From positions 1 through 39,422 of IMG/VR virus record IMGVR_UViG_3300048927_000760: 39,422 nucleotides of DNA; one strand, written 5' to 3'. Within the stretch, counting starts at the first letter, position 1, and each line of letters opens with the position of its first letter. A model generated the notes under the pieces. The model was not told the DNA's origin. It searched no databases and saw only the letters and a list, made by a program, of their open reading frames with translations. This DNA comes from a virus. Below, one piece after another: positions 31,272 to 37,860 of the stretch. The position numbers and the translations under genes are program-made.

Positions 31272-31301
31272 ATTTAGCCCCGAGCTAAACCTTCCTGTCA
31301 A
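31272..31301 (-). promoter_or_regulatory. leftward early promoter (cro promoter)
   Basis: On the minus strand a perfect TTGACA -35 box (31301-31296) is followed after exactly 17 bases by GCTAAA (31278-31273) and then TACCC. The -10 box is weak relative to consensus but coincides with half of operator O1. Transcription would begin at or within a base or two of the cro ATG. Confidence 0.65.
31273..31289. promoter_or_regulatory. repressor operator O1
   Basis: TTTAGC-CCCGA-GCTAAA is a perfect inverted repeat with 6-bp arms and a 5-base spacer. It covers the -10 box of the leftward promoter, so bound repressor would block cro transcription. The same geometry recurs three more times in the control region. 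Confidence 0.75.
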
Positions 31302-31322: not shown

Positions 31323-31339
31323 TTTAGCCGCTAGCTACG
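31323..31339. promoter_or_regulatory. repressor operator O2
   Basis: TTTAGC-CGCTA-GCTACG keeps one perfect arm and four of six bases in the second, with the same 5-base spacer. It lies nine bases upstream of the repressor ATG, and its centre is 50 bases from that of O1. It may be an autoregulatory site for the repressor gene. Confidence 0.6.
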
Positions 31340-32217: not shown

Positions 32218-32763
32218 CTAAGGGCTATCGCCCTTGTACTTTTTTTCGATGGCTGCTTGCTTGTCACGCCTTTCATCGGCACATCGCTGCCTCGCTTGGC
32301 TCATGCTCGCATCCGCAGCCTGTCGCTCAGAAGAAATGGACTGCTGAAGAGCAGCCAGCTGAGTACGAATCCCGGATTCATAGGTCGCGCCGGCAAGGTT
32401 ATTTTTCGCGAGTGATGCAGCAGCGTTCAGTTCGGCAATCTGCCGCTGGTAGCCAGAAATGCGCGAATCGACCGGGGAGTAGATGCTTGACCGTGACGAT
32501 GCGACGCAGTTCCTCTCAGCGATTGACGCGTCTGAAAGATCCGTGGATCGAAACACCGTACTGCGATTAGCCGCTTCGCCAGCGGACACGCTCGCCGCCT
32601 TGGTAGAGCGAACAATCAACTCTTGGGACTGGGGGCCACATGGTCTCTGCGAGTACACCGCCTCCCCGCTTGCACCCTTGCACTTGTAGACCTGTGCAGT
32701 GGCCGGAGAGCACAAGCTCAATGCAGCCGTCCCGATTGTGAGCGCGATCGTCTTCCTCAGCAT
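32218..32763 (-). CDS. secreted DUF4124-like moron protein
   Basis: A 181-residue protein with a clear Sec signal peptide (MLRKTIALTIGTAALSLCSPATAQ, cleavage after ATA-Q likely). The mature N-terminus VYKCKGASGEAVYSQRPCG matches the short DUF4124 pattern, with two Cys framing a Y-S-x-x-P-C turn. The rest (about 70-175) is helical and coiled-coil-like (ISGYQRQIAELNAAASLAKNN, IRTQLAALQQSISSERQAADASMSQARQR). It is the only periplasmic candidate in the lysogeny region. It stands alone on the minus strand against the surrounding plus-strand genes, the usual form of a moron. It may alter the host envelope, for example in superinfection exclusion, but this is inferred from location only. Confidence 0.8.
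   Translation of the reverse strand: MLRKTIALTIGTAALSLCSPATAQVYKCKGASGEAVYSQRPCGPQSQELIVRSTKAASVSAGEAANRSTVFRSTDLSDASIAERNCVASSRSSIYSPVDSRISGYQRQIAELNAAASLAKNNLAGATYESGIRTQLAALQQSISSERQAADASMSQARQRCADERRDKQAAIEKKYKGDSP
32220..32246 (+). terminator. intrinsic terminator for the rightward repressor transcript
   Basis: AAGGGC-TATC-GCCCTT (32220-32235) is followed closely by TTTTTTT (32240-32246) on the plus strand. This hairpin plus T-tract ends transcripts coming from the repressor gene. It overlaps the last codons of the opposite-strand gene. Confidence 0.6.
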
Positions 32764-32839
32764 CCGTACAAATCCTTTGTCTCCGGTCTTGGCTGATTAT
32801 CGAGCATCCAAGGGGTGCCTCCTACCCGATCGTCAATAA

Positions 32840-32856
32840 TTTAGCTGACAGCTATT
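32840..32856. promoter_or_regulatory. repressor operator O3
   Basis: TTTAGC-TGACA-GCTATT has the same 6-5-6 geometry as O1, with four of six bases in the second arm. It overlaps the upstream edge of the rightward promoter's -35 box. Confidence 0.6.
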
Positions 32857-32883
32857 GCACTCAGAATTTAGCTGTGGGATAAA
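32855..32883 (+). promoter_or_regulatory. rightward early promoter
   Basis: TTGCAC (32855-32860) and GATAAA (32878-32883) are separated by exactly 17 bases, and TACCCC follows. The layout (17-base spacer, -10 box formed by the second operator arm, then TACCC) is the same as in the cro promoter. It would start transcription near 32890. Confidence 0.6.
32867..32883. promoter_or_regulatory. repressor operator O4
   Basis: TTTAGC-TGTGG-GATAAA differs from a perfect 6-5-6 repeat at only one base. It overlaps the -10 box of the rightward promoter in the same way that O1 overlaps that of the leftward promoter. Its centre is 27 bases from that of O3. Confidence 0.68.
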
Positions 32884-32886
32884 TAC

Positions 32887-33018
32887 CCCGTCGGCGCCCC
32901 AGCCGACGGGCGACCGGCGGGCCGCCCCTATCGGCCCAGCCCCTCCCCTGCTGAGTCGATAGGTGCCAATCCCCAGGCAACAGGCCCGCCGGCGCCCTCC
33001 TTCCAAACGGAGAGCGCC
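32887..33018 (+). ncRNA. structured 5' leader of the rightward operon
   Basis: The 132 bases between promoter and first gene contain five possible stems. P1 is CCCGTCGGC/GCCGACGGG (32887-32895/32902-32910). P2 is CCGGCGGGCC/GGCCCGCCGG (32914-32923/32983-32992), enclosing P3 (32927-32935/32955-32963, nine pairs with one G-U) and P4 TGCC/GGCA (32964-32967/32976-32979). P5 (32991-33000/33009-33018, nine pairs and one mismatch) places the ribosome-binding site GGAG (33009-33012) in a helix. P2 and P5 share bases 32991-32992, so the two compete at that point. The arrangement resembles a translational switch. GC-rich DNA makes chance stems likely, so this needs testing. No known riboswitch class is recognised. 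Confidence 0.45.
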
Positions 33019-33249
33019 ATGTCTTACCGAACCGCTGCCGACTCCCAGCCTTGGGCACCCCTGCCGCTGCGAGCGGCCACCTGCCTGTTGGCGCAGGCCG
33101 CTCGCGACCACACACGGGCCAACGTCCTGCGCGCCAGGAGCGCGGGCGAGCACAGCCGCAACCAACTGCGCCGCTCGCGCCGTATGGGGGTCCAGAGCCG
33201 ACGAGTTGAGGCCGAGTCCCGGGACATGGCAGCTGAGGTGCGGGCATGA
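33019..33249 (+). CDS. small basic protein, first gene of rightward operon
   Basis: A 76-residue, Arg-rich, probably helical protein (RAATCLLAQAARDHTRANVLRARSAGEHSRNQLRRSRR). GGAG six bases upstream of the ATG is a good ribosome-binding site but can be paired in the leader structure. It ends in ATGA overlap with the next gene. Not recognised; nucleic-acid binding is plausible from charge. Confidence 0.65.
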   Translation: MSYRTAADSQPWAPLPLRAATCLLAQAARDHTRANVLRARSAGEHSRNQLRRSRRMGVQSRRVEAESRDMAAEVRA

Positions 33250-33515
33250 GCGCCCCCTCCAAGATCGCAGCTATCCGCCAAGCCGTGAGCGCGCTGCACG
33301 GCGCCGCTGACGATGGTGCCGACACGCGCCGCTACGCCGACGCATTGCAGGAAGCCGGCGCTGCCATTGACGCGCTGATCGAGGCCGACGCCGAGTGGCA
33401 CGGCCTCATGGCGCGGATGCGTGCCAACCCCTCCACGATGCTTGACCGCGAAATCAGGAAAGCTGAGCGCCGCGCAGCTGCCGCCCTCGCTCGCGTCAAA
33501 GGCGGTGCCGCATGA
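33246..33515 (+). CDS. small helical protein of unknown function
   Basis: An 89-residue protein predicted to be almost entirely helical (KIAAIRQAVSALHGAADDG, RYADALQEAGAAIDALIEADAEWHGLMARM, LDREIRKAERRAAAALARV). ATGA overlaps at both ends tie it to its neighbours. No motif indicates a function. Confidence 0.68.
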   Translation: MSAPSKIAAIRQAVSALHGAADDGADTRRYADALQEAGAAIDALIEADAEWHGLMARMRANPSTMLDREIRKAERRAAAALARVKGGAA

Positions 33516-33976: not shown

Positions 33977-34249
33977 ATGGCCGCACCTCTCAAGCGCCTC
34001 GAACGCGCCGCACTCATCACCGCCAGCGGCGCCGCCGGGCACGCGCTCAAGCGCACCCGTGGAGGCTTCTACTCGCCCAAGCAGCCCGCCAACGTGTTCA
34101 CCCGCCGCGTCATGAACTGGCTCTACGAACGGGCCCTGATCGACTACGACGACCCGAACTTCCCCACGCTGGCCAAGCTGACCAAGTCCGGGATGGTGCA
34201 AGCCGCCGCGCTGATCAAGCAGGCACGCATCGGCGTGGGCGCCCCGTGA
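33977..34249 (+). CDS. small basic phage protein of unknown function
   Basis: A 90-residue protein. AGGAG six bases before the ATG at 33977 favours this start over an upstream ATG at 33953. The sequence (LKRLERAALITASGAAGHALKRTRGGFYSPKQPANVFTRRVMNWLYERALIDYDD, then FPTLAKLTKSGMVQAAALIKQA) suggests a small winged-helix-like domain in which NVFTRRVMNWLYERALIDYDD is the helix leading to the wing. It may bind DNA. It overlaps the next gene by GTGA. Confidence 0.66.
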   Translation: MAAPLKRLERAALITASGAAGHALKRTRGGFYSPKQPANVFTRRVMNWLYERALIDYDDPNFPTLAKLTKSGMVQAAALIKQARIGVGAP

Positions 34250-36958: not shown

Positions 36959-37008
36959 TCGATATTCTCCCTGTCGGCTTGTCGGCATTCTGCCACGGCG
37001 GTGACAGC

Positions 37009-37860
37009 ATGATTACGGCACCGGCGTTCCGCTACCACGGCGGCAAGTTCCGGCTTTCGCCCTGGGTGCACCAGCACCTGCCGGCGCATCGCACCTACGT
37101 CGAGCCTTACGGAGGCGCGGCCGGCGTTCTGCTCACCAAGCCCCGCAGCTACGCGGAGGTCTACAACGACCTCGATGGTGACGTGGTCAACTTCTTCCGA
37201 GTGCTTCAGGATCCAGCACAGCGCGATCGCCTGTCTGAAGCCTGCGCACTGACGCCCTATGCCCGTGCCGAGTTCGAACAGGCGTGGGAATTGACGCCAG
37301 ATCCCGTTGAGCGGGCTCGCCGGCTGTTGATCAGGGCACAGATGGGGTTCGGCTCTGCCGGCGCCACCAAGGGGAAGACGGGCTTTCGCATCGACTCTCA
37401 GCGCGCCTACGGGACCGCGCAGCACCACTGGGCGCGCTTCCCTGACGGCCTAGCCGCGATCGCGGAGCGTTTCTCCGGGGTGCTCGTCGAGAACCGGCCG
37501 GCGATCGAGGTAATGCTCCAGCACGACGGCGCCCAAACCCTGCACTACGTGGATCCGCCGTACGTACACAGCACGCGGGTAATGCAGGCGGGCAAGGCGG
37601 GCTATTACCGGCATGAGATGACAGAGGCCGACCACCAGGTGCTGCTGGATTGCCTCAACGGATTGCGAGGGATGGTCGTTGTGTCCGGCTACCGGACGGA
37701 CCTGTACGACACAGCCCTGCAGGACTGGCGCCGGGTGGAGACCCGAGCGCGGATCAGCGCCGGCCGAGGCTGCACAGTGCGGACTGAGTGCCTGTGGATC
37801 AGCCCGACTGCCGCCACTGCTGGCCACCAACAGGGCCTGGACCTGGAACACGTCGCATGA
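37009..37860 (+). CDS. D12-class DNA adenine methyltransferase, early operon
   Basis: A 283-residue adenine-N6 methyltransferase. It has FRYHGGK (7-13), the AdoMet motif VEPYGGAAG (31-39), NDLDGDVVNFFRVL (53-66) and the catalytic DPPY (182-185). The start is the ATG at 37009; the in-frame extension 80 codons upstream is antisense to another gene. Compared with the enzyme at the left end it lacks the FFLNRTNRSG block and has a different insert (QMGFGSAGATKGKTGFRI), so the two are distinct lineages with probably different target sites. Its place in the early operon suggests methylation of phage DNA soon after infection, protecting against restriction. Confidence 0.93.
   Translation: MITAPAFRYHGGKFRLSPWVHQHLPAHRTYVEPYGGAAGVLLTKPRSYAEVYNDLDGDVVNFFRVLQDPAQRDRLSEACALTPYARAEFEQAWELTPDPVERARRLLIRAQMGFGSAGATKGKTGFRIDSQRAYGTAQHHWARFPDGLAAIAERFSGVLVENRPAIEVMLQHDGAQTLHYVDPPYVHSTRVMQAGKAGYYRHEMTEADHQVLLDCLNGLRGMVVVSGYRTDLYDTALQDWRRVETRARISAGRGCTVRTECLWISPTAATAGHQQGLDLEHVA

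Follow-up and report, generated by a model that had tools for sequence, protein, structure and literature searches.

The sequence is a 39,422-nt temperate-phage record (IMG/VR IMGVR_UViG_3300048927_000760), the full stretch of which is referred to as the window. Within it, the leader at positions 32887-33018 is placed between a CI/Cro-type immunity region and a rightward operon that ends at the integrase. A preliminary description had proposed that this space follows a repressor-controlled promoter, that it holds several hairpins, the last of which pairs the ribosome-binding site (RBS), and that it could act as a translational switch, possibly by sensing a protein or a small molecule.

Promoter and folded leader

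The features of the locus are collected in Table 1. The operator-like palindrome TTAGCTGACAGCTA has two near copies (31274-31287 and 31324-31337) in the interval that separates the cro-like gene from the cI-like one, and operator-like sites number nine, against 1.06 expected. Given these near copies and the promoter directly upstream, the leader can be regarded as the 5′ untranslated region (UTR) of a repressor-controlled early transcript, which supports the repressor control that had been proposed. The 132 bases after the promoter do hold the elements described, but the RNA probably does not begin at 32887. Since the -10 box occupies 32878-32883, the usual transcript start is probably about G32890, the likely canonical +1. 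The bottom pairs of hairpin P1 are formed by CCC 32887-32889 and GGG 32908-32910, and these first three base pairs may be absent from the RNA. The distance between promoter and leader is fixed among 76 relatives, in all of which the base equivalent to G32890 lies 7-9 nt past the -10 box.

All the hairpins named in the preliminary description are present, both in the sequence and in the computed fold. The minimum free energy (MFE) of the leader is -79.3 kcal/mol, compared with -52.4 ± 3.6 kcal/mol for 200 dinucleotide shuffles, none of which is as good (z -7.4); shuffled sequences fold far worse, so the proposed structure withstands this comparison. The reverse strand of the leader folds too, less markedly (z -4.5). 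In the RBS hairpin, GGAG 33009-33012 pairs with CUCC 32997-33000, and bases 32991-32992 are common to this hairpin and to the closing stem P2. In the full-length form, the Shine-Dalgarno sequence (SD) has a predicted probability of 0.002 of being free. A coding function of the leader, on either strand, was rejected, as leader lengths modulo 3 take all three values and the internal AUG is not conserved. In Stenotrophomonas phage S1 (L276, EU849489, 35911-37312), gp39-gp41 are annotated on the wrong strand where the early operon begins; gp41, a "putative MSF protein", is an antisense ORF over the leader, and the true strand carries no annotation for either the leader or the first gene.

Table 1. 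Position and nature of the features of the locus in the window
Feature	Position	Strand	Details	Basis
Operator-like palindrome TTAGCTGACAGCTA	32841-32854	+	Rightward early promoter	0 mismatches to pattern
Promoter	32855-32883	+	-35 TTGCAC 32855-32860, 17-nt spacer, -10 GATAAA 32878-32883	Read from sequence
Hairpin P1, 9 bp	32887-32910	+	32887-32895 with 32902-32910	Fold and covariation
Junction GGGCGA	32908-32913	+	5′ strand of the extended closing stem	Conserved pairing, computed energies
Closing stem P2, 10 bp, CCGGCGGGCC/GGCCCGCCGG	32914-32992	+	32914-32923 with 32983-32992, encloses two inner hairpins	
Inner hairpin PA	32927-32963	+	C-rich loop CUCCCC	Fold; 3 significantly covarying pairs
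Inner hairpin PB	32964-32979	+	C-rich loop AAUCCCCA	Fold; covarying pairs
RBS hairpin GGCGC-C-CUCC / GGAG-A-GCGCC	32991-33018	+	Hides Shine-Dalgarno 33009-33012	
First gene	33019-33249	+	76-aa Arg-rich protein, phrog_16412, unknown function	
Operon gene, phrog_27259	33977-34249	+	90 aa, winged-helix-like	Sequence inspection only

Distribution and covariation

Relatives of the leader were sought in three ways, by BLAST, by protein homology with the first-gene product and with a DNA pattern, and a covariance model was applied to the loci. BLAST gave one isolated phage with the leader, Stenotrophomonas phage S1. The protein searches gave 21 and then 65 IMG/VR loci, and the model detects the leader at 86/86 protein-found loci, 85 of them complete. 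The exception (L213, 1-1104) is a remnant in which the last 33 nt are kept before the gene and the upstream sequence is unrelated, possibly a natural deletion of the leader. The DNA pattern matched 90 viral stretches and about 17 genomic ones (Stenotrophomonas, Xanthomonas, Pseudoxanthomonas, Luteimonas and one MAG), giving 93 distinct leaders together; since part of the closing stem is prescribed by this pattern, invariance has to be assessed from the protein-found set (A1) and the model-found genomes. Within the host family, model R2 places the leader in 18 of 395 genomes, and the class-level search of sampled Gammaproteobacteria gave no match besides Stenotrophomonas maltophilia D457 (G001), its search centre.

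Neither the window nor other phages contain a second copy of the leader above noise, and the weak minus-strand matches are the reverse of the same leader stems. A comparison of twelve leader-bearing phages across 20 kb shows a terminase of the lambda-gpA type in all of them and one small operon gene in most, so these phages constitute one lineage. At the gathering threshold, Rfam 15 has no match in the window, and at E<=10 the region 32700-33300 gives chance hits only (E ~3); the earlier statement that no known riboswitch class is matched therefore holds. The leader has the general character of a structured cis-regulatory leader, that is, a 5′ UTR with covarying structure that pairs the RBS, and it represents a real and new cis-regulatory RNA family, specific to S1-like temperate phages of the Xanthomonadaceae.

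What surrounds the leader is variable. Upstream operators and promoters differ among relatives (TTTAGCTG, TTCGTTTA, TATAAGTG and TAAAGC types), and the first gene belongs to at least three unrelated kinds: a 72-80-aa Arg-rich protein, an Lcl_C-domain protein or a small membrane protein. The leader itself is retained up to the start codon across these unrelated genes, including the spacer between SD and AUG, which is conserved and paired. Its persistence through exchanges of promoter, repressor and first gene makes it probable that it controls some general aspect of the early operon. The inner region comprises exactly two hairpins in 89/93 leaders; these differ in length and sequence, and one is missing in L044, L187-L189 and L242-L244.

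Several observations concern the neighbouring genes. The gene of phrog_27259 is found in 12/13 leader-bearing phages compared, and its product is a candidate partner or regulator of the leader. Lcl_C-domain genes sit exactly between the leader and the small gene (L019, 2558-2968; also L071, L135, L171 and L199); they end in GFALAVRRAGQ or similar, preceded by variable sequence, and their products appear to resemble the variable proteins of diversity-generating retroelements. A D12-class adenine DNA methyltransferase is encoded in the same early operon of the window (37006-37860). Phages with a related second gene (L038-L043, L025, L029 and L030) carry quite different short leaders, some of them also with a hairpin just 5′ of the SD.

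The structure is supported by the pattern of substitutions. Among 24 leaders located by protein homology, the proportion of paired cells is 92.9%, against 30-47% in slid controls, and the covariation score is 0.113 compared with 0.085 after shuffling (0/500). Double changes affect 31/41 pairs in a set of 41 diverse leaders, with a score of 0.291 against 0.108 for shuffles (0/500), although this alignment was fitted to the model and its score leans towards it. A tree-based null was therefore built in the manner of R-scape, by moving substitutions among columns along the tree. With 69 leaders, it yielded six significant pairs among about 8,256; with 76 leaders, more simulations and a stricter limit, four. 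Every significant column pair is a proposed base pair, belonging to P1, PA or PB; in P1, UA/CG and GC/AU/CG exchanges are seen at several pairs.

P2 and the RBS hairpin vary little, which leaves covariation thin there and the one-set test not significant for them. The changes that do occur retain pairing. In P2, compensatory changes are represented by CCAGCGGGUC/GAUCCGCUGG (L184) and CCGGCAGGUC/GACCUGCCGG (L198), with CCAGCGGGUC/GACCCGCUGG in another lineage (L245, L246). The RBS hairpin keeps its pairing with altered sequence, through double-change events, in L182 (GCGCUCUC/GAGAGCGC), L185 (GCCUCUAUC/GAUGGAGGC), L186 (GCUUUCAUC/GAUGGAGGC), L196 and L198 (CGCCUCCU/AGGAGGCG). The search for compensatory changes in homologous leaders, suggested with the original description, has thus found them, and the reading is not refuted.

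Alternative folds and the 5′ end of the RNA

The preliminary description saw a conflict between P2 and the RBS hairpin in the two bases that they share. These bases are indeed shared, but they do not make the real switch, as the competition is far larger and involves an extended closing stem. The GGGCG of the junction is complementary to CGCCC 32993-32997, the part of the RBS hairpin 5′ strand that follows P2, with the A bulged. The product, P2ext, is GGGCG[A]CCGGCGGGYC/GRCCCGCCGGCGCCC, one 15-bp helix with one bulged A, and this larger exchange of strands branches at the overlap, 32991-32992. P1 and P2 alone are insufficient to explain the invariant GGGCGA junction. P2ext can pair in 76/76 leaders, with all five added pairs in 75, although most members are so constant that its conservation there is not independent evidence. 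Where both strands have changed, the pairing is kept: GGCGGC/GCCGCC in L185, GGCGAC/GUCGUC in L196 (a double change relative to L185) and AGCGGC/GCCGCU in L186.

The computed energies are consistent with two competing states, which are predicted to lie close together. The P2ext fold has a median energy 3.3 kcal/mol above the MFE, and among 70 leaders it is the most favourable RBS-open structure in 94%. When the junction is replaced by A, the RBS becomes harder to open, and the median cost goes up from 6.7 to 12.2 kcal/mol. In 72/76 leaders, the predicted MFE of the nascent chain passes through P2ext before the SD-side strand emerges. Two folds of the 5′ UTR of this repressor-controlled early (PL-like) operon can thus be envisaged. 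In the closed one, P1 would be complete, P2 formed, and the RBS hairpin would pair the SD and the spacer up to the start codon. In the open one, the junction GGGCG would leave P1 and join CGCCC, P2 would grow to 15 bp, and the RBS hairpin would lose its 5′ strand, leaving a 4-bp CUCC/GGAG remnant in which the SD is still mostly paired (median unpaired 0.12). The choice between these folds would control translation of the first gene. From the energies, tens- to hundreds-fold regulation is conceivable. Against a switch of this kind, strand exchange through a 4-bp toehold could allow fast equilibration.

Two simpler arrangements were considered and rejected. A swap of strands between P1 and P2 is impossible in the group of the window, because P1 differs there. 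The local hairpin P2* (GCGACC-GGCG-GGUCGC) is conserved in most leaders and is not a required element, since an A-C mismatch breaks it in the window, L117 and L138.

The modelled folds suggest that the leader is most likely a bistable translational leader. The translational switch proposed earlier stands to the extent that a conserved leader pairs the RBS and shows compensatory changes, but the mutually exclusive element is the extended closing stem. The full reading, a leader of the early operon alternating between RBS-closed and RBS-open states, with the RNA 5′ end as a less certain trigger, is the one we favour and appears rather probable. Against it must be weighed a plain structural leader without switching, in which hairpins protect the mRNA, the RBS is ordinary and the alternative stem is a by-product of high GC content, which is about 75%. 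The cost of opening the start region in the window is 8.2 kcal/mol, close to the median of 8.0 among 24 genes of the same phage; this is ordinary for a phage RBS, so the leader need not lock translation. The constancy of most members also favours this view. It leaves aside, however, that junction and anti-SD strand are still complementary where both have changed (L185, L186, L196, L198), that everything 5′ of the start codon is conserved and paired in front of unrelated first genes, and that the promoter lies at a fixed distance. We regard a purely structural leader as unlikely, though deserving serious consideration.

For the bistable leader, the geometry of the start site points to the RNA 5′ end as one candidate trigger. 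In the window, an RNA starting at C32887 is predicted to adopt mainly the closed fold, with a P2ext probability of 0.006, whereas a start at G32890 gives 0.97. Across 76 leaders, moving the start 3 nt on raises the median P2ext probability from 0.08 to 0.86, with values above 0.5 in 66/76, and at no other offset is the RBS cheaper to open (median 5.9, window 4.9 kcal/mol). The shift persists under another dangle setting and at 28 °C. Changing CCC 32887-32889 to AAA likewise gives a predicted P2ext probability of 0.97. The base at this offset is G in 71/76 leaders and is preceded by a pyrimidine run; it lies 7, 8 or 9 nt past the -10 box in 43, 30 and 3 leaders, respectively. A C start would keep the bottom of P1 intact and the leader closed, while a G start, 3 nt shorter, would remove it and leave the leader open. 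That the 5′ end sets the fold state is inferred with less certainty than that the two folds control translation, as the pyrimidine run could merely reflect promoter preference. A specific version, in which the choice of polymerase between C and G acts via the GGG of P1 and the strand exchange, so that nucleotide pools set early translation, is tentative and on balance unlikely. If true, nucleotide pools at prophage induction would set the translation of early genes.

Other functions and comparison with known systems

A different function, processive antitermination, would have the leader act on the polymerase from the outset of early transcription, as do HK022 put and lambda nutL. Like putL, the leader is a structured RNA that immediately follows an early promoter of the phage (PMC9378689). 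It is also independent of the first gene, which often encodes a small Arg-rich helical protein loosely resembling lambda N (in the window, a single long helix is predicted, pLDDT 86). However, put consists of two stem-loops of about 70 nt, present in two copies per phage (PL and PR), whereas the leader has five helices in 102-139 nt and a single copy, with none at the leftward operon, and its conservation reaches the start codon, RBS included. No intrinsic terminator-like site is found on the + strand within the operon. The Arg-rich segment shows no conservation in Xanthomonas phages, where the RNA is kept, and for this reason the first-gene product was rejected as a cognate RNA-binding protein; the gene is also missing within 4 kb in L049 (whose locus ends early), L119, L149 and L153. 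Antitermination is improbable on these grounds.

A trans-acting or sponge RNA, whose C-rich loops would pair with G-rich ribosome-binding sites, is slightly less probable still. Of 93 leaders, 85 have CCC and 76 have CCCC in both inner loops; among 23 dissimilar representatives, the frequency of CCC in both is 74%, against 9.7% in their shuffles. The Xanthomonas sRNA sX13, from the same bacterial family, likewise has hairpins with CCCC-type loops and works through 4C/5C loops (PMC3771888). But sX13 is a free sRNA, whereas the leader forms the untranslated beginning of an operon mRNA and includes a conserved RBS hairpin, and no terminator-like + strand site lies between leader and gene that would be a sign of free RNA. 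A sponge would have no need to conserve an RBS hairpin or a precise join to the start codon, and the 4G motifs near phage S1 starts (11/42) are expected from G-rich SD sequences.

Least probable is a ligand-sensing riboswitch or an RNA thermometer: alternative folds that govern an RBS are typical of both, but the leader has no Rfam match, its closed-to-open gap of 5.3 kcal at 15 °C still amounts to 2.1 kcal at 50 °C, and the small-molecule sensing that had been suggested finds no support in inner hairpins that vary, may be lost and form no conserved internal pocket.

Among the closest parallels to the bistable leader is start-site switching in pyrimidine genes. In pyrC, the extra 5′ bases form a hairpin directly with the SD, whereas the extra bases of the phage leader would only complete an upstream hairpin and act via strand exchange about 80 nt away. 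The precedent comes from the pyrC and pyrD leaders of E. coli and Salmonella (Wilson et al. 1992; Sorensen et al. 1993, both listed in PMC5730371). The phage leader shares with both a pyrimidine run followed by G near the start, and here too the C-started RNA is predicted to hide the SD and the G-started RNA to expose it, apart from the 4-bp remnant. The gene controlled differs, being a phage gene and not one of pyrimidine synthesis, and start-site switching in the phage is hypothesised from sequence.

Among phages, the lambda cIII leader also belongs to an early-operon mRNA with alternative folds, one of them inhibitory for translation, and involves RNase III (PMC2777011). Sequence, position and architecture are all unlike those of the present leader, and the involvement of RNase III belongs to the cIII leader. 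Folding kinetics have been described for the leader of the MS2 maturation gene, in papers cited in PMC6071253. The C-started phage leader would be similar in that its nascent fold is predicted to be open and its final fold closed; MS2 is, however, an RNA phage with an unrelated structure, and the kinetic parallel derives from predicted folds. Beside these systems, the present leader would stand as a compact bistable RNA and possibly as a phage case of start-site-dependent translation.
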